Below, piece by piece: positions 11,539 to 21,661 of a DNA stretch of 21,661 bases. The notes under the pieces are model-generated. The model was not told where the DNA came from. It saw only the letters and a program-made list of their open reading frames with translations, and made no database searches. Numbering within the stretch: the first letter of the stretch is position 1; each line of letters begins with the position of its first letter. A program made the translations under genes and the position numbers. The DNA is from a virus: IMG/VR virus record IMGVR_UViG_3300011113_000517, positions 1-21,661 of that record; one strand, given 5' to 3'.

Positions 11539-11559
11539 ATGTTTCCTTTATATGGTTGT

Positions 11560-11587
11560 ATTATAGCACTGATAATAGAAATGGCAA
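11560..11587 (-). promoter_or_regulatory. Sigma70-type promoter for the small conserved gene
   Basis: TTGCCA (11587-11582), 16-bp spacer, TATAAT (11565-11560) on the minus strand. It lies in the divergent gap and overlaps the possible start of the lysozyme gene. Confidence 0.65.
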
Positions 11588-11595
11588 ATAACAAT

Positions 11596-12531
11596 ATGAA
11601 AAGATTTAAACAATTTTTGTTGGAATCTCCAGCACCTCCAAATGTTCAAAGAGTTAAAGATTATATTTGGAAAGAAGAAACACAAGGAAATGAAAATAAA
11701 ATTCGTAAAGTGTATTATCCACAAGAAAATGATCCGACAATAGCTGGAGGACACAGCTTCAAAGATTTAGAACATTCACGAAGAGTATTTGCTGAAGTAT
11801 TTCCAGAAAAAATGAAAGAAAATCCAAATTGGGTTGATCAACTTGCCCAAGGCACTGCTAACATGGAAGATGATGAAATGAAAAAATTATTTGATCATGA
11901 TGTAGAAATAAGATTAAAAAATTTGCCAAAGTTGATAAAAAACTTAAATGACATGAGTCCTGAAATGCAAGAAGTTTTGGCTTCATCTTATTATAGAGGT
12001 TCTTTGGGTGGATCACCCGAAACTGTTAGATTACTAAATGCAGGAAAATATAAAGAGGCTGCTGATGAATATGTTAGAAATGCAGAATATGAAGCATCAA
12101 GAACACAGACACCTCATCCAAAAACTAAAATAGTTCCTGGAAAAGGCGTTTATCAAAGAATGGATAGAGAACGTGAAGTTATGTTGGGTGAATTGGAAAG
12201 ACAATCAAAAATGATGCAAGCATTAAATCAAAATATTACAAAACCATCAGCAAATACTGGTATGGTTATTGGTGGAGATGCAAGATCTCTTTCTATGAGT
12301 GGAGAATTATCTTATCCTGCTGGAAAATCCATATATCATTTTGAAAAACCAGTATCAGAAAAACCTAAAGAGCAAAAAGAAAATAATATAGAATATACTG
12401 TAAAACCGGGTGATAATTTAACAAAAATTGCACAAGCAAATAATAAAAATTTACAAGATATTATTAAATTAAATAATATTTTAGACCCCAATAAAATATC
12501 TGTTGGTCAAAAAATTAAATTACCAAAATAA
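11596..12531 (+). CDS. GH24-type lysozyme with C-terminal LysM
   Basis: This protein of 311 residues begins MKRFKQFLLES. ATG 11581, five codons earlier, is the alternative start; neither has a clear SD. Residues about 17-170 fit the T4 lysozyme/GH24 fold: a catalytic Glu in DYIWKEET (Glu27 or 28), PTIAGGHSF matching the TIGYGHT element, and a late segment (ASSYYRGSLGG...RLLNAGKYKEAADEYVR) matching the GH24 helices. A Gln/Ser-rich linker follows. The last 48 residues (YTVKPGDNLTKIAQANN...ISVGQKIKLP) are a clear LysM cell-wall domain. There is no signal peptide. The short leader ending in LLES resembles T4 capsid-targeting peptides, so it may be virion-packed; a holin-dependent endolysin is the other reading. 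Confidence 0.75.
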   Translation: MKRFKQFLLESPAPPNVQRVKDYIWKEETQGNENKIRKVYYPQENDPTIAGGHSFKDLEHSRRVFAEVFPEKMKENPNWVDQLAQGTANMEDDEMKKLFDHDVEIRLKNLPKLIKNLNDMSPEMQEVLASSYYRGSLGGSPETVRLLNAGKYKEAADEYVRNAEYEASRTQTPHPKTKIVPGKGVYQRMDREREVMLGELERQSKMMQALNQNITKPSANTGMVIGGDARSLSMSGELSYPAGKSIYHFEKPVSEKPKEQKENNIEYTVKPGDNLTKIAQANNKNLQDIIKLNNILDPNKISVGQKIKLPK

Positions 12532-16353: not shown

Positions 16354-16806
16354 ATGTTCTTCAAAGATGATTTTAACCACCTATCACCAAATATTAGAGA
16401 CAATCATTATCTCCTTATAGAAAAATTCAAAAAAGAATTACGCAGGGGAGACAAGGGTAGACTTGAAAAACTTTTGGCAAAAAAAGAAAAACGTTTAGAT
16501 GCTCTAGAAGCAAAAAATAAACGTTTGAGAGAATTATCATATCCTGCTAAAATAGATCCAAATGATCCTGTAGTTGGAACGGCGGGTGGGATGCTTGATT
16601 GGGAATCTAAAAAAGAACTTTCCCATCTAAGAGATATTAATAAAATTAAAGCAGCTTTGAGAGAACAAATGATGCCTAAAGAGGGTGAAAACACCCTTGA
16701 TATTGATTTTCAAGAAAAACAAAAGAAAAAAGATGAAATAAAAGCTCAAAAAGTCGAAAGACAAATTGAGAAAGTAGATGATGAAGCAGATCAAAGTCAC
16801 ATATAA
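16354..16806 (+). CDS. Coiled-coil protein of unknown function
   Basis: This 150-residue, highly charged protein is rich in Lys, Glu and Arg. Residues about 20-65 (KKELRRGDKGRLEKLLAKKE and onward) form a long basic helix or coiled coil, residues 66-90 a loop with NDPVVGTAGGMLDWESK, and the rest a second charged helix. I do not recognise the family. It is the first gene after a late box placed 5 bases before the ATG, and is followed two bases after its stop by the first of the four proteins with a shared leader. It lacks that leader itself. A scaffold or head-associated function is possible from composition and place. Confidence 0.55.
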   Translation: MFFKDDFNHLSPNIRDNHYLLIEKFKKELRRGDKGRLEKLLAKKEKRLDALEAKNKRLRELSYPAKIDPNDPVVGTAGGMLDWESKKELSHLRDINKIKAALREQMMPKEGENTLDIDFQEKQKKKDEIKAQKVERQIEKVDDEADQSHI

Positions 16807-16808
16807 AC

Positions 16809-17198
16809 ATGAACTACCTAACAAACTATTACAAAAATTTAGCAGAATCACTTCAACAAGAAGTTAATATTCTTGAACAATTATTAAATGAGTCTGGATA
16901 TAAAAAAGCCATGCGCAGTAAAAATCCAGATCGTATTAAAAAAGAAATTGCAAGACAAAAAAACAGAAAACAAGATGTGTATTCACGTAAAGAAAAAGCT
17001 GACCGTGAAAAACGTGAAGCCGAGTATGAAGGTGATAAACAACTTGCAAGAATAAGAGAAAAAGATTCAGACACATATTACAATACCGCATTAGCACATG
17101 ATGACAATCTTGATAAACTTTCAAACAAAAGAGATAGGCTTTTAGGAAAAGTTCAACAAAATTGGTCACCAATGGCTAGAATGTATTTTCATTCTTAA
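16809..17198 (+). CDS. Shared-leader protein A
   Basis: This is a 129-residue protein. The first about 30 residues (MNYLTNYYKNLAESLQ..., then a heptad-like stretch ending LLNES) are nearly the same as those of three other genes downstream (17226, 18070, 19103). The rest is unrelated to them: a very basic and charged helical part (KKEIARQKNRKQDVYSRKEK) up to residue about 100, and an aromatic end. It starts 2 bases after the previous stop. The sharing of only the N-terminus suggests a sorting or assembly signal, for example for capsid packaging. There is no membrane segment or export signal. Function unknown. Confidence 0.6.
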   Translation: MNYLTNYYKNLAESLQQEVNILEQLLNESGYKKAMRSKNPDRIKKEIARQKNRKQDVYSRKEKADREKREAEYEGDKQLARIREKDSDTYYNTALAHDDNLDKLSNKRDRLLGKVQQNWSPMARMYFHS

Positions 17199-17201
17199 AA
17201 T

Positions 17202-17209
17202 TATAAATA
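17202..17209 (+). promoter_or_regulatory. T4-type late promoter TATAAATA
   Basis: Exact TATAAATA, 16 bases before ATG 17226, with AAAAAGGT as ribosome binding site in between. Confidence 0.75.
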
Positions 17210-17225
17210 ATAAAAAGGTACACAG

Positions 17226-17780
17226 ATGAATTACTTAACAAACTATTACAAAAATTTAGCAGAATCATTACAAGAACAAGTTAATGAACTAGAAAATTTA
17301 ATTCTAGAATACAAAAAATCGAGAACTCAACGCGTTGATATTCACGACGTTGAAGATAAAGGTGAAGACGCACCAATGATTCACGGTAGAGTTGTGACCA
17401 AGAAGGGTAATCCAGCAGGCAAGGGTGCTGCAAAGGAAAGAAGTGTATCTTTCTATCCTTCTCAAGCATTTAAGACTATTCAAAATTATCCAGGCCATCA
17501 AGAAGGAGATGCTTGGGACATAATCAGCAATGCAGGACGCCCAACTATCGAAAATAACCCAATCTATGCAAATCTTAGGGCTAAAGGACCAGCGCTAGAA
17601 GTAAAAAGAGGTGATATAGTGGCTGGACTAGAAAGAGGCGAACCAAGACCTAAAGGTGGACACGAAAAAGGAAAAGGCAAGAAGACTGCAAAGAAGCGCG
17701 AAGCAATGCGTAAAGCAGGACAACAAAACGAGTCCATGACATATCTACAAAGATTGTTAGACGATCTCGACCAAGAATAA
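17226..17780 (+). CDS. Shared-leader protein B
   Basis: This 184-residue protein opens with MNYLTNYYKNLAESLQEQVN, identical to protein A for 16 residues, and a heptad helix to about residue 30. The body is basic, with HDVEDKGEDAPMIHGRVVTKK, then SFYPSQAFKTIQNYPGHQEG (about residues 75-94), and a lysine-rich segment (GHEKGKGKKTAKKREAMRK, about 143-161). It ends with another short helix (SMTYLQRLLDDLDQE). The middle and basic parts are more GC-rich than the leader, as if different bodies were joined to one leader. A nucleic-acid-binding internal head protein is a possible reading. It has its own late promoter and a terminator 25 bases after the stop. Confidence 0.6.
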   Translation: MNYLTNYYKNLAESLQEQVNELENLILEYKKSRTQRVDIHDVEDKGEDAPMIHGRVVTKKGNPAGKGAAKERSVSFYPSQAFKTIQNYPGHQEGDAWDIISNAGRPTIENNPIYANLRAKGPALEVKRGDIVAGLERGEPRPKGGHEKGKGKKTAKKREAMRKAGQQNESMTYLQRLLDDLDQE

Positions 17781-17805
17781 ATTTTTAGTTAAAATTTTAA
17801 ATAAC

Positions 17806-17833
17806 AAAAGGGTCCCAGAAATGGGACCCTTTT
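17806..17833. terminator. Bidirectional terminator
   Basis: AAAAGGGTCCC, loop AGAAAT, GGGACCCTTTT: an 11-bp perfect stem with A- and T-tracts on both sides. It lies between convergent protein B and the small membrane protein. Confidence 0.9.
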
Positions 17834-17859
17834 CTATTGGCCTAAAATGACTTATAGGC

Positions 17860-18021
17860 TCACTTAGCAGCAGGAGTCTCTACGGCTGCTGGCTTGACCT
17901 CGACGGCCTTAGAATGATTGCTAGCAGCCCAAAGAACGACTACAGTAAATACTCCTAGAATTACGAGAGTCCAAGTAAGAGGCGAAACAGACTTAACAAA
18001 CTTTTTAATCTTATCTAACAT
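17860..18021 (-). CDS. Small single-pass membrane protein, 53 residues
   Basis: This is a 53-residue protein. A basic amphipathic start (MLDKIKKFVKSVSP) is followed by one clear membrane segment (LTWTLVILGVFTVVVLWAA, residues 15-33) and an Ala/Pro/Val-rich tail (VEVKPAAVETPAAK). The positive N-terminus predicts the N-terminus inside and the tail outside. AAAGGAGA lies at a good distance from the ATG. GATAAATA on the same strand lies 19 bases upstream as probable late promoter. It could be a holin-like or spanin-like lysis protein, or a host envelope modifier, but one helix and no lysis partner next to it leave this open. Confidence 0.75.
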   Translation of the reverse strand: MLDKIKKFVKSVSPLTWTLVILGVFTVVVLWAASNHSKAVEVKPAAVETPAAK

Positions 18022-18040
18022 GATATCTCCTTTGAATAAC

Positions 18041-18064
18041 TATTTATCTCAATTTTAATAAATA
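18041..18064. promoter_or_regulatory. Divergent late promoter pair
   Basis: Minus strand GATAAATA (18048-18041) serves the small membrane protein, with 19 bases to the ATG and an SD. Plus strand AATAAATA (18057-18064) ends 5 bases before ATG 18070 of protein C, with no SD. Confidence 0.6.
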
Positions 18065-18069
18065 ACTTT

Positions 18070-19098
18070 ATGGACTACTTGACAAAATATTACAAAAATT
18101 TATGTGAGCAATACCAAGAACAATTGGATAATCTCAAAAGACGCGCAGCCGATTTAAAAGCAGGAGAATGGTGGGGGAAAGAGGTTCCAGAAGATATTTC
18201 AAAACAATATCAAAATGATCCAAAATATTGGATGGCATCATCTTCAGACTTTCGTCGTATTCGTTTTGCTCCTGATGAAATTCCTGGAGTAAAACCATAT
18301 AAGGATCTTCCTCCTGATATTGATACCTTTGCAACTGCAACAGATATAAAAAAATCAATGCCAGCATATTTTAAATCTGGATTTTTTTCAAATTCACTTA
18401 ATACACAACAACCAAGTACACCCGTAGATTGGAATAAATTTAGTAATATTCTTTCAAATCGTCCAAAACCAAAATTAGAACCAGAGATGGAAACGTATAG
18501 AGGAGCGCCAGTAAGATCCAAATTGGAATCAAACTCTTCATCATATGTTTCTGACAATGCATATTCGCCACAAAACACACCAGCAGCAAATCGTGAAAGT
18601 CAAAACACAAGAGACATGTTTGACAGAATGTCAGGAAATCGTCCTCCATCATATTCATTGACACGAAATACTGTCCCACCACAATCTTACGAAGATCAAG
18701 AACTTGCCAGCAAGATGAGACAGAACAGAAAAGATTCACTCAACAGAATGGCTGCGGGACAAAAAGAAATCACAGACATATGGAATGAGGCAGGAGAAAG
18801 AATTAGAAAAATTTATGCTCCAAAACCAGATCCATCTAAAATGACTCCAGAACAAAAATCAGAGCATATGGCAAGAACTGGTGACTCAACTGAACCAGTA
18901 AAGAGAACAACAGAAGAAATTTTAAGAGATGCAGAAAATGCAACAAAACGTTTAAGAGCAATATTAGACAAAACCAAACCAACAGAATCACAAAAGAAAC
19001 CAGAAGTAGCCTCTCCAACTTTACCACCAGATGCAATGGGAGCAATTCAAGCAATGTTAGCATCTGCAGCAGAATCATCAAAAAGAATGGTAAAGTAA
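18070..19098 (+). CDS. Shared-leader protein C, Pro/Ser-rich
   Basis: This 342-residue protein begins MDYLTKYYKNLCEQYQEQLD, which is the common leader with small changes; the heptad continues to about residue 32. The body is Pro-, Ser-, Asn- and Arg-rich and probably mostly unfolded between residues 110 and 210 (for example NRPPSYSLTRNTVPPQSYED). A charged helical part from about 225 to 260 (EITDIWNEAGERIRKIYAP) and a Lys/Thr/Pro-rich end follow. I find no known enzyme motif. It starts 5 bases after an AATAAATA box and is followed 4 bases later by protein D. Unfolded, packable bodies after a common leader fit internal virion proteins, as inference. Confidence 0.6.
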   Translation: MDYLTKYYKNLCEQYQEQLDNLKRRAADLKAGEWWGKEVPEDISKQYQNDPKYWMASSSDFRRIRFAPDEIPGVKPYKDLPPDIDTFATATDIKKSMPAYFKSGFFSNSLNTQQPSTPVDWNKFSNILSNRPKPKLEPEMETYRGAPVRSKLESNSSSYVSDNAYSPQNTPAANRESQNTRDMFDRMSGNRPPSYSLTRNTVPPQSYEDQELASKMRQNRKDSLNRMAAGQKEITDIWNEAGERIRKIYAPKPDPSKMTPEQKSEHMARTGDSTEPVKRTTEEILRDAENATKRLRAILDKTKPTESQKKPEVASPTLPPDAMGAIQAMLASAAESSKRMVK

Positions 19099-19102
19099 AA
19101 AT

Positions 19103-19579
19103 ATGGACTACTTAACTAACTATTACAAAAATCATTGTGAGCAATTACAAGAACATATAAATTTTTTGCAAAATTTATTAAATGAAGAAGATGACAAAAT
19201 TAAAACACGTTACGTTTATGATGAAGATGAAGATTTTGTAGGTCCACCACAAACTTTAAATTATGATGTATTGCCAGATGACGAAATTCAATACAGAACT
19301 CAAAAGATAGAACAATATACAAAATTAGGACACAGAAATAAACAAATTTCAGATGCTTGGAATTATATTTCCAAAAATAATTCTGATCCTGTTACACTTA
19401 ATAAAATAAAAAATGAGTTTGAAAAAGAAATTTATAAAAACAGAGAACAAACATTGAGGCTTGGTGATGAGATATGGAAAAAAGGAAAGGATCGAAAATA
19501 CGTCGATCCAAGAATAGCAGAGATAAATGCAAGAATCAATAGACAGATGACAGACAGCGAAGAAAAGCCAATAAGTTAA
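19103..19579 (+). CDS. Shared-leader protein D
   Basis: This 158-residue protein starts MDYLTNYYKNHCEQLQEHIN and continues with a leucine heptad to LLNEEDD near residue 32. The body is acidic first (YDEDEDFVGPPQTL, about 39-52), then helical and charged (TKLGHRNKQISDAWNYISKN and DPVTLNKIKNEFEKEIYKN), with a basic end. The body shows no similarity to those of A, B or C by eye. The spacing of 4 bases from gene C suggests one transcript. It is the last gene of the AT-rich part and is followed by a palindrome and a strong hairpin with seven T. Confidence 0.6.
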   Translation: MDYLTNYYKNHCEQLQEHINFLQNLLNEEDDKIKTRYVYDEDEDFVGPPQTLNYDVLPDDEIQYRTQKIEQYTKLGHRNKQISDAWNYISKNNSDPVTLNKIKNEFEKEIYKNREQTLRLGDEIWKKGKDRKYVDPRIAEINARINRQMTDSEEKPIS

Positions 19580-19736: not shown

Positions 19737-19874
19737 AAAACTTTGAGAGAAAGAGAAACACGACGCTATCCCCGAAACGTTTCACAGTTTTGAAATTTCT
19801 GAAATTTACTGTTTGGACCGGCTCTCCTGGGCCTCAGAACATTTTTTCAAATTAATATTTGCACCCATAGCACA

Positions 19875-19901
19875 GCAGGCCCCCTGTGTCAAGGGGCCTG
19901 C
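19875..19901. terminator. GC-rich hairpin downstream of the first GC-rich gene
   Basis: GCAGGCCCC, a 9-base loop, GGGGCCTGC: a perfect 9-bp stem about 30 bases beyond the stop of the minus-strand zinc-ribbon-like gene. There is no clean T-tract, so its role as terminator is uncertain. Confidence 0.45.
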
Positions 19902-19928
19902 CGGAAGTTTATCAAATTATTTCCCGGG

Positions 19929-20186
19929 TTAGTCCTCGTAGGGATCGTAGCCTGGGCCGTAGCGATCCTCGTAGCGAGCTGAGTACTGCTCTTCCTGCCA
20001 CGCTGAGTTCAGGTAGCGTTCCGAATCGTAGGCGCTGTCGTTCCTGTGTCCGGGGGGCACGCCGTCGCAGTCGTAGCACGGCTGGCAGATGCCGATCTCC
20101 TGGGCGTCCGTGCAGGCGTCGGTGATGGGCGCGTTGCAGAACGCGCAGGTGCGGGGGGTTTCATCGTTGGTGGTGCTGAGGCACAT
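19929..20186 (-). CDS. Small protein with zinc-ribbon-like cysteines, leaderless
   Basis: This is an 85-residue protein from ATG 20186, chosen because the consensus promoter ends exactly 6 bases upstream; the TTG two codons earlier lies in the promoter gap. Residues 14-40 carry CAFC, a single Cys, then CQPCYDC, which can form one zinc site. The C-terminal 40 residues are rich in Tyr, Asp, Glu and Arg (QEEQYSARYEDRYGPGYDPYED) and probably unfolded. I do not recognise the family. GC-rich codon use separates it from everything to the left. It is a single-gene unit with its own promoter. Confidence 0.65.
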   Translation of the reverse strand: MCLSTTNDETPRTCAFCNAPITDACTDAQEIGICQPCYDCDGVPPGHRNDSAYDSERYLNSAWQEEQYSARYEDRYGPGYDPYED

Positions 20187-20192
20187 ACGCAA

Positions 20193-20220
20193 ATTATAAA
20201 CTCTTCCCGGGTGCTGTCAA
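20193..20220 (-). promoter_or_regulatory. Consensus sigma70 promoter, leaderless
   Basis: TTGACA (20220-20215), 16-bp spacer, TATAAT (20198-20193) on the minus strand: both boxes are perfect. Six bases then the ATG, so transcription should begin at the start codon. Confidence 0.9.
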
Positions 20221-20246
20221 TACCTGGTGCTGCGTGAAATCAAAAA

Positions 20247-20324
20247 AAATCTCCGGCCCTCTCCCGCTCCAGACATTCGGCCCGTGTAACGGGCAGGGAG
20301 CATTGGGTTCGGGGCCGGAGATTT
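20247..20324 (-). terminator. Large branched terminator hairpin
   Basis: AAATCTCCGGCCC (20247-20259) pairs over 13 bp with 20312-20324. Inside are CTCCC/GGGAG and the hairpin GCCCGT GTA ACGGGC. On the minus strand it is followed by eight T, 20 bases after the acidic-protein gene, so it should end that transcript. The inner structure is more than a terminator needs. Confidence 0.7.
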
Positions 20325-20344
20325 GTTGAGCTAGGGCGGGGGGC

Positions 20345-20611
20345 TTACATCTCGCCCCATCCAGCTGAGGCCAGCCAGTCGTTGTCCGCGTCCCAATCGT
20401 CCTGCGTCATCATGCCGCAGGCGTCAGCGAAGCCGTCGCTGTCCGGGCGCTCGCAGTACTCCGGCTCCTCATCGGAGCTGCCTTCGGCCAGCCGCACCTC
20501 GGGGCCGTCCTCGGGCTCGGCGGGCTCGGCGTCGTGCACGTCGCCCTCATCGTAGTACTCCTCACAGCCGGGCAGGTCGAAATCGTCGTAGTCGCGTTCA
20601 GGGGTGCTCAT
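20345..20611 (-). CDS. Very acidic small protein, leaderless
   Basis: This 88-residue protein has more than a third Asp and Glu, spread over its length (for example ERDYDDFDLPGCEEYYDEGD), few Lys or Arg, and a Trp-containing end (DDWDADNDWLASAGWGEM). Such composition is seen in DNA-mimic phage proteins that block host nucleases or regulators, but also in unfolded proteins. No family recognised. The start is fixed by the promoter 6 bases upstream. The -35 to -10 spacer contains half of a 12-bp inverted repeat. Strong early expression is likely; function is unknown. Confidence 0.65.
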   Translation of the reverse strand: MSTPERDYDDFDLPGCEEYYDEGDVHDAEPAEPEDGPEVRLAEGSSDEEPEYCERPDSDGFADACGMMTQDDWDADNDWLASAGWGEM

Positions 20612-20617
20612 GCGTGT

Positions 20618-20645
20618 ATTGTACCCAAAGCCCGGTGAAAGTCAA
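20618..20645 (-). promoter_or_regulatory. Sigma70-type promoter, leaderless, with operator-like half site
   Basis: TTGACT (20645-20640), 16-bp spacer, TACAAT (20623-20618) on the minus strand, six bases to the ATG. The spacer contains TTTCACCGGGCT, repeated in inverse order beyond the middle of the intergenic region. Confidence 0.85.
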
Positions 20646-20755
20646 CCCCCCTTTCCCAATATTTTTTCATTCTGAAAGCCGGCCAGGTATGAATGGCCGG
20701 CCCCAGGTGCCTGGCCCGATAACCTGGGCAGAAATATTTCTAATTTCACCGGGCT
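20629..20755. repeat. Nested inverted repeats between divergent promoters
   Basis: Outer arms AGCCCGGTGAAA (20629-20640) and TTTCACCGGGCT (20744-20755) match over 12 bases. Inside lie AATATTT/AAATATT arms, then two side-by-side hairpins: CCGGCCA/TGGCCGG (20679-20700) and CCCAGGT/ACCTGGG (20702-20728). It is an operator region or an origin-like structure; the sequence does not decide. Confidence 0.75.
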
Positions 20756-20761
20756 ACCACC

Positions 20762-20789
20762 TTGACCTAGGCGGAGAGTCTGGTACAAT
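20762..20789 (+). promoter_or_regulatory. Sigma70-type promoter, leaderless
   Basis: TTGACC, 16-bp spacer, TACAAT, then six bases to ATG 20796. It lies directly after the right arm of the inverted repeats. Confidence 0.85.
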
Positions 20790-20795
20790 TCCCGC

Positions 20796-21197
20796 ATGAA
20801 CAGCACCACCTTCAGCTCCGCTATCGACATCGTTCACAGCACCTCCCGCACCGTTGACGCGCTCCGTGGCCCGGATCGCGAAGACCGCATCGGGGAGTGC
20901 CGGATCGCGAACCGCAGCAACTACACCCGCATCACCTTCGACGGCCTCGCGTCTGCCGCGTTTATGATCCCCGTCGGCCCCTACGCTGCCCGCGTGTGGT
21001 CGTCGCCGGAGGCTTCCTTCGGAACCTTCCACTTCCTCGGCGGTCCCGGTGAGGACGCGCTGGCCTGCCTGACGCCCAGCGAGATGCGGGCAATGGCCTA
21101 CGGCCTGCTGGCTGCGGCCAACTGGGCCGACAGCAGGGACACGGACCGCAAGCAGGCGGAACGCCGTCCCGCCCGTCCCTGCCCCTCCCAGGCCTAA
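20796..21197 (+). CDS. Unknown protein, 133 residues, leaderless
   Basis: This 133-residue protein has a GC-rich, Ala/Arg-rich composition. Residues about 30-85 read as strands (RIGECRIANRSNYTRITFDG, AAFMIPVGPYAARVW, ASFGTFHFLGG), followed by a helix starting at LTPSEMRAMAYGLLAAANWAD. The end (RDTDRKQAERRPARPC) is basic and unfolded. The strand-helix layout is compact and enzyme-like or single-domain, but I do not recognise it. The promoter position fixes the ATG. It faces away from the acidic-protein gene across the inverted-repeat region and may be controlled together with it. Confidence 0.65.
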   Translation: MNSTTFSSAIDIVHSTSRTVDALRGPDREDRIGECRIANRSNYTRITFDGLASAAFMIPVGPYAARVWSSPEASFGTFHFLGGPGEDALACLTPSEMRAMAYGLLAAANWADSRDTDRKQAERRPARPCPSQA

Positions 21198-21241
21198 CCC
21201 GATGGGGGACGGGAAAGAAATAATAAATCTTCCCGTCCCCC

Positions 21242-21269
21242 TTGACACGCCCCGAACATAAGGTAACAT
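21242..21269 (+). promoter_or_regulatory. Sigma70-type promoter, leaderless
   Basis: TTGACA, 16-bp spacer, TAACAT, then six bases to ATG 21276. It is the fourth promoter with the same geometry in this GC-rich part. Confidence 0.8.
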
Positions 21270-21275
21270 TCAGCC

Positions 21276-21515
21276 ATGACCAAGCACCCGACCTTCGACC
21301 GCATCCTGTTCGCCCTCTGCATCATCAGCGCGTGGACGCTGCCCAGCATCTTCCTGTGGGCCTTCACGCAGCCGAACGACCTTCCTCTGTGGTGGAACGG
21401 TGCAGGCATCATCTGCTCCTGCTTCCTGTTCCTCTGCGCCTTCGTGATGACCTTCGTCATCGGCGGACTCCGCTATGTCCTGACGGGCAGCGAGTTCCCG
21501 GAGGACACCAAGTAA
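21276..21515 (+). CDS. Small two-helix membrane protein, leaderless
   Basis: This 79-residue protein has two clear membrane segments: residues about 8-30 (FDRILFALCIISAWTLPSIF) and about 40-66 (WNGAGIICSCFLFLCAFVMT), joined by a short loop (TQPNDLPLWW). It ends in a short polar tail (TGSEFPEDTK). Charges predict both ends on the same side. It could be a holin-like or superinfection-exclusion-type protein; nothing in the sequence decides. It has its own promoter 6 bases before the ATG, and UUCG-type hairpins follow the stop. Confidence 0.75.
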   Translation: MTKHPTFDRILFALCIISAWTLPSIFLWAFTQPNDLPLWWNGAGIICSCFLFLCAFVMTFVIGGLRYVLTGSEFPEDTK

Positions 21516-21530
21516 CTGGGTGGTGCCAGC

Positions 21531-21583
21531 AACAACTGAACGGGATTCGTCCCTGCCCCGGCTTCGGCTGGGGCTAGGTTGTT
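21531..21583 (+). terminator. Three-stem structure with two UUCG hairpins
   Basis: AACAAC pairs with GTTGTT (21531-21536 with 21578-21583) and closes two hairpins, GGGA TTCG TCCC (21542-21553) and GCCCCGGC TTCG GCTGGGGC (21555-21574, one G-T pair). It follows the membrane-protein stop by about 15 bases and is read as a terminator or a structured RNA. Confidence 0.5.
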
Positions 21584-21610
21584 TGTGGCGGGGCCGGTCA
21601 CCAGGCTACT

Positions 21611-21637
21611 ATCAGAAATCGCCCTGCGATTTCTGAT
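21611..21637. terminator. Perfect 12-bp hairpin near the window end
   Basis: ATCAGAAATCGC, loop CCT, GCGATTTCTGAT followed by TTATTTG. It is a stem of 12 perfect pairs and probably a second terminator. Nothing further is supported in the remaining bases. Confidence 0.55.
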
Positions 21638-21661
21638 TTATTTGTGGATGGTGCGCCTGAT

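Follow-up and report, generated by a model that had tools for sequence, protein, structure and literature searches.

A shared N-terminal leader, probably a capsid-targeting propeptide, on unrelated proteins of uncultured T4-like phages

Four adjacent genes in the IMG/VR record IMGVR_UViG_3300011113_000517, whose 21,661 nucleotides (nt) form the window analysed here, encode proteins that begin with one leader of about 28 residues, consensus MNYLTNYYKNLxExLQExVNxLExLLNE (the YLT leader), and continue into unrelated bodies. This leader is very probably a capsid-targeting propeptide of an uncultured T4-like lineage, cleaved by a gp21-type prohead protease, with the bodies as head cargo. The initial annotation had reported the shared leader on the open reading frames (ORFs) starting at 16809, 17226, 18070 and 19103, and their coordinates and lengths hold as follows (pI, isoelectric point; a slash in a sequence marks the putative cut site).

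16809..17198, plus strand: putative cargo protein A, 129 amino acids (aa), with a 28-aa YLT leader ending LNE/SG and a basic helical body, pI 9.9
16809..16892, plus strand: leader of A, codons 1-28
17226..17780, plus strand: putative cargo protein B, 184 aa, with its leader running to E28 (ILE/YK) and a basic body, pI 9.6
17226..17309, plus strand: leader of B, codons 1-28
18070..19098, plus strand: putative cargo protein C, 342 aa, with the leader end RRAAD in place of the usual L-x-E and a body of pI 9.3 that has no L/I/M-x-E
18070..18147, plus strand: leader of C, codons 1-26
19103..19579, plus strand: putative cargo protein D, 158 aa, with the leader end LNE28/ED and an acidic body, pI 5.3
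19103..19186, plus strand: leader of D, codons 1-28

Residues M1, Y3, L4, T5, Y7, Y8, K9, N10, E13, Q16 and L22 are invariant in all four leaders, and there is no alignable similarity among the four proteins past about residue 30, which agrees with the earlier description of the bodies as unrelated. In the window, a 14-base core pattern of the leader has exact matches solely at the four gene starts, and 6 matches when up to one mismatch is allowed (0.63 expected). A search of related phages for the leader motif, suggested with the initial annotation, was productive. With one window protein as the query, a scan of viral contigs detected the leader in 40 IMG/VR loci, and a rescan with the leader alignment gave 77 loci, partly on the same contigs. 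When every ORF of these loci was then searched with a hidden Markov model (HMM), the number of distinct leader proteins came to 159, each of them on an uncultured T4-like contig (L numbers such as L005 and L007 denote loci or contigs related to the window). There are from 1 to 8 leader genes per record in 40 records. The leader was not found in 50,697 sequenced phage records, where only four spurious hits with E near 7 were returned, nor in prokaryotes (84,980 species, one genome each); three of the cargo proteins used as queries had zero relatives in the same 50,697 phages, and the letters of the motif were not found in the open literature library searched. Protein B has 35-54% identity to 8 relatives, all of which have the same leader.

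The window is collinear with L007 and L027, the first of which is part of a 135-kb contig encoding gp23 and a gp21-type prohead protease, and its IMP dehydrogenase-like protein is 94% identical to that of L027. The capsid protein of the group (L061) has its best matches among cultured phages at only 53-54% (cyanophages and other marine T4-like phages). Given this collinearity and this distance, the window is a fragment of a T4-like phage without a close cultured relative. The gp23 (PF07068) and S77 prohead protease gp21 (PF03420) genes co-occur in the same 11 of the 40 leader-bearing records.

An all-against-all comparison placed the bodies of the first 97 leader proteins in 46 families, and similar bodies were present in just 3 of the 111 pairs of leader proteins that share a contig, which makes the leader a module and not the slowly evolving terminus of a gene that was duplicated. 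Diverged duplicates of one gene might be expected to look like the four window genes, which lie side by side in one orientation and have the leader in common; such an origin does not account for this diversity, nor for the occurrence of one body under three different leaders, and it has practically no chance of being correct. For the leader family, ordinary duplication is refuted by the body diversity and the leader swaps together. Similarity running on through the bodies, set beforehand as the result that would count against a targeting signal, was not obtained.

The protease of T4, gp21, cleaves after L/I-X-E (PMC9026906). An [LIMV]-x-E is present at residues 22-38 in 156 of the 159 leaders. 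Of the first 97 proteins, 95 have [LIMVF]-x-E at the leader end, where shuffling the stretch gives 43±5; the residue directly after the site is A, S, G or T in 57 (11±3 in shuffles). The end of the leader had been placed at about residue 30, which is the approximate position; more exactly it is this L/I-x-E site, mostly at residue 23, 28 or 31, so that leader length varies stepwise with a constant end motif. Most leaders have extra L-x-E sites inside them (E13 and E17 in NLxEQLQE, and also E23 and E28). In gp23 of these phages, L-x-E-D is kept at the place expected for propeptide removal (HL[TIY]ED).

The strongest evidence for a targeting propeptide is the natural exchange of leaders. Three leader classes are present on the same bodies: the YLT leader, a leader like the T4 capsid-targeting sequence (CTS), here MKSFKQFLxE, and a third with FNDHLxFSNN (the FSNN leader). 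In the first body family the joint reads MKSFKQHLHE/SGLKKAL under the T4-type leader (L014), ..INLIE/AGLKRAL under a 23-aa YLT leader (L005 and 12 others), ..LLNE/SGYKKAM under the 28-aa YLT leader of window protein A, and ..FLKQKELHE/AGLKKAM under the third leader, NNFSDHLLFSNNIWDN (L104), so that the body family of A is also found under the T4-type and FSNN leaders. Homology begins at the x-E joint despite leaders of 10, 23 or about 28 residues, and such a start is seen in the two clearest body families. The second of these carries MQSFKQFLLNE/A (L022), ..INLIE/A (L028) and MFKDHLIFSNNLQDAANQLRLHE/A (L118), with identities of 57% over 264 aa between L028 and L022 and 74% over 317 aa between L118 and L028. 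Weaker cases with two leaders are L034/L038 with L085, and L113 and L030 with L005, where the L113 match lies inside the body; in L136_4926 the FSNN leader is fused to a YYKNLCEQLQEK part. Where the protease would cut, one segment thus takes the place of a T4-type CTS, and the simplest reading of such a segment is a capsid-targeting propeptide. The YLT leader appears to act like the T4 CTS, with which it is interchangeable on the same bodies.

The sequence KIKKYSWIHELNAAAMKAKLLNE/A, carried by bodies that differ from one another, is a candidate for a fourth class of leader (L020:5297, L031:5455, L032:6817, L033:6760, L036:6184, L040:6293, L072:260, L074:236). In several of its genes TATAAATA, the core of the T4 late promoter, precedes the ATG by 5 nt, and the loss of L-x-E is weak (15 against 25 expected). 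The 434-aa ORF L029:10447-11748 opens with a YLT leader and has another, degenerate one at about residue 140, after which comes a body that L013 carries under the FSNN leader; it looks like two joined cargo proteins.

A protein that meets the protease is expected to lose L/I-x-E from its body. With one body kept from each cluster at 50% identity and composition-keeping shuffles for comparison, there are 96 [LIM]-x-E in YLT bodies where 203±12 are expected (z -8.7; z -8.0 with local shuffles). The T4-type CTS proteins of the same contigs have 24 against 55±7 (z -4.4), and 380 other genes have 727 against 693±23 (z +1.5). The control motifs LxD, LxK, LxQ, ExL, LE and LxxE are not depleted in the bodies. 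In the window, one [LIM]-x-E is left in each of the bodies of A and D, and zero in those of B and C. The YLT bodies are also somewhat basic, with a median pI of 8.3 against 6.6. That the leader might mark scaffold-like proteins of the prohead core that are later destroyed, like T4 gp22, gp67 and gp68, and not cargo that survives, would fit the same compartment and the same protease, and also the several L-x-E sites in each leader (E13, E17, E23, E28). The core proteins of T4 are, however, cut into many fragments (PMC9026906), whereas the bodies here have half the expected sites and are very diverse in sequence, so that this fate is very unlikely.

AlphaFold predicts the leader as one helix, which spans residues 2-28 of protein A and 3-30 of protein B, and in A the predicted helix breaks at residue 29, which is the cut site; the structure predicted for A consists of helices (pTM 0.34). 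The hydrophobic residues 4, 8, 11, 15, 19, 22 and 26 form a heptad pattern, which would suit docking onto a helical scaffold. The same heptads and single helix could belong to a permanent coiled-coil domain for docking or oligomerisation, in tail or baseplate attachment for example, in which the prohead protease plays no part, and the window has genes for a tail tube and a baseplate hub, 15 kb from the leader genes. A permanent dock is nevertheless unlikely, as it leaves unaccounted for the L/I-x-E end, the loss of the motif in the bodies and the swapping, at the x-E joint, with a T4-type CTS of 10 aa.

Of the 159 leader genes, 57 (36%) have the core TATAAATA in the 120 nt upstream of them, as do 28 of 371 others (8%), the latter being mechanically called ORFs with less AT-rich upstream regions (40% GC against 32%). 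It ranks second among the 56 rearrangements of its letters, after TAAATAAT, which overlaps it as TATAAATAAT. In 45 of the 57 promoter-bearing leader genes, precisely 5 nt separate its end from the ATG. Over all loci there are 81 sites at this spacing, for example at L008:4469, L029:10447 and L030:7051, mostly before leader, T4-type CTS or FSNN cargo genes; the remainder precede the genes of a small conserved family (SLEDxIRxVxxKYKNRPSPL) or some other genes. For gp22 and gp23 of the same phages, 21-28 nt lie between TATAAATA and the ATG and include a ribosome-site-like stretch; the corresponding distance in the T4 segments examined is 13-28 nt. T4 late promoters have a known transcription start point, and given a core 5 nt before the ATG we infer that many cargo mRNAs may start at or beside the ATG, almost without a 5' leader. 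None of the four window leader genes has the canonical core at 5-nt spacing; B has it further upstream, A and D have neither TATAAATA nor AATAAATA, and C has the following variant.

18057..18064, plus strand: AATAAATA, which differs from TATAAATA in one base, exactly 5 nt ahead of the start codon of C

Some leader genes are arranged as divergent pairs, their ATGs about 25-30 nt apart and mirrored late promoters overlapping between them (L015:7516/7545, L030:7022/7051, L021:4638/4663).

In T4, the CTS targets internal proteins to the prohead core, and an Asp at the cut position of IPIII prevents its processing while leaving targeting intact (PMC9026906). The YLT proteins resemble T4 IPI, IPII, IPIII and Alt (CTS MKTYQEFIAE/A) in having a short N-terminal leader, diverse bodies and an L/I-x-E cut site, and their phages, like T4, encode a gp21-type protease and gp23. 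In T4 IPII and IPIII, L/I/M-x-E is found solely at the end of the CTS and not in the mature parts, and the YLT bodies are depleted likewise. Unlike in T4, the leader is a predicted helix with YLTNYYKN and usually several L-x-E sites, there are up to 8 such genes on a 92-kb contig, and they coexist with T4-type CTS proteins. The latter, in the same uncultured phages, share body families with the YLT proteins and have lost L-x-E to an equal degree, but differ in a 10-aa leader of other sequence and in including lysozyme-like and LysM bodies. Those of L012:3495, L035:4689 and L037:1651 are presumably T4-lysozyme-like, and the VFHGTS stretch of L016:13356 (minus strand), also under a T4-type CTS, presumably recalls ADP-ribosyltransferases such as Alt. 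The inner head proteins of SPN3US and phiKZ have propeptides that are removed by a gp21-like protease and have extra cut sites inside (PMC5694885), as in the YLT leaders, and SPN3US gp53 and gp54 have an identical N-terminus and diverged bodies (PMC5694885). These differ in belonging to giant phages, in the A-x-E motif of SPN3US and in propeptides often of more than 100 aa, and no description of a broad family of unrelated bodies under one leader was found for SPN3US or phiKZ.

By the precedent of T4, the cargo would be made late in infection, its leader forming an amphipathic helix that docks the new protein on the prohead's scaffold core. Cleavage by the gp21-type protease would follow, after the L/I-x-E at the leader end and often also at L-x-E sites within the leader; the leader would exit, and the mature body would remain in the head with the DNA. 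By a further step of reasoning, the body would probably be injected into the host at infection. The removal of a targeting signal by the prohead protease, as first proposed for these genes, is supported by the end motif, the loss of the motif from the bodies, the CTS swaps and the late promoters.

Several points weigh against this reading. Packaging, cleavage and injection are deduced for proteins known here from sequence alone, and the loss of L-x-E indicates exposure to the protease and not where the body resides afterwards. Protein C does not have the L/I-x-E leader end of the other three, and an upstream promoter was found for just about one third of the leader genes. Neither gp21 nor gp23 was found in the window contig, to which they are linked only by synteny. 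Almost no recognised domains were found in the bodies (Pfam and PHROGs, 97 members), the few matches being short, among them dockerin/EF-hand-like, DUF7178 and a peptidase/endolysin-like stretch in L017:9089. A 'cytidyltransferase' match in L043 was not used, its short stretch also matching several other families, and for the body of B there was no fold match at E<=0.001, with modest structure confidence. Lastly, the YLT leader has 23-34 aa against 10-19 aa in the leaders of the T4 internal proteins (PMC9026906) and no clear sequence similarity to them. It is because of this different sequence and greater length that the YLT proteins are filed as a variant of T4-type capsid targeting and not as plain CTS members; they agree with CTS cargo in the conserved leader on unrelated bodies, the gp21 site at the leader end, the sparing of the bodies, the gp21-type protease and T4-type head of the phages and the exchange with a T4-type CTS.

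While all four YLT genes of the window had been recognised initially, two related cases, at 16354-16806 and 11539-12531, had been missed.

16354..16806, plus strand: probable further cargo gene, whose start, MFFKDDFNHLSPNIRDN, resembles a divergent leader of the third (FSNN) type when aligned by eye, although the FSNN HMM does not list it
11596..12531, plus strand: T4-type leader MKRFKQFLLE/S on a LysM-domain protein, from the in-frame ATG at 11596 within the ORF 11539-12531

The C-terminal part of the first matches a body carried under a YLT leader (L038), and L027 has an FSNN gene at the equivalent position.

Directly 3' of the leader-gene cluster (window 19850-21661) the GC content rises from about 36% to about 60%, a stretch that lasts from 2 to more than 9 kb in relatives and on part of which there are tRNA genes. 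The same jump is present in L027, L030, L021, L039, L013, L015, L016, L028, L037 and L123, with patches of DNA common to them, so that a sharp border in composition is conserved within the phage genome. That the 62% GC end of the window arose by chimeric assembly was rejected, as many related contigs show the jump at the same place with shared DNA.

Three things are new here: a class of leader, the swapping of this leader with two others in front of the same cargo, and a promoter that abuts it. On balance, a modular packaging code is slightly favoured, in which the same bodies trade leaders of three or more unrelated classes and, as a late promoter abuts many of the leaders, the promoter and leader can travel as a cassette that makes a downstream protein head cargo; distinct leaders may address distinct partners or layers of the prohead core. 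Internal proteins of T4 such as IPI* block restriction enzymes. Carried proteins of this sort, restriction inhibitors and host-takeover enzymes, are nearly invisible to homology search, and the leader provides a searchable tag for those that T4-like phages probably carry into the host, with 159 candidates from phages that have no close cultured relative. The loss of L-x-E from the body together with the leader swap offers a general route to calling head cargo from sequence alone, and the leader itself is a candidate for another tag, unrelated to the first, with which proteins might be loaded into phage heads.

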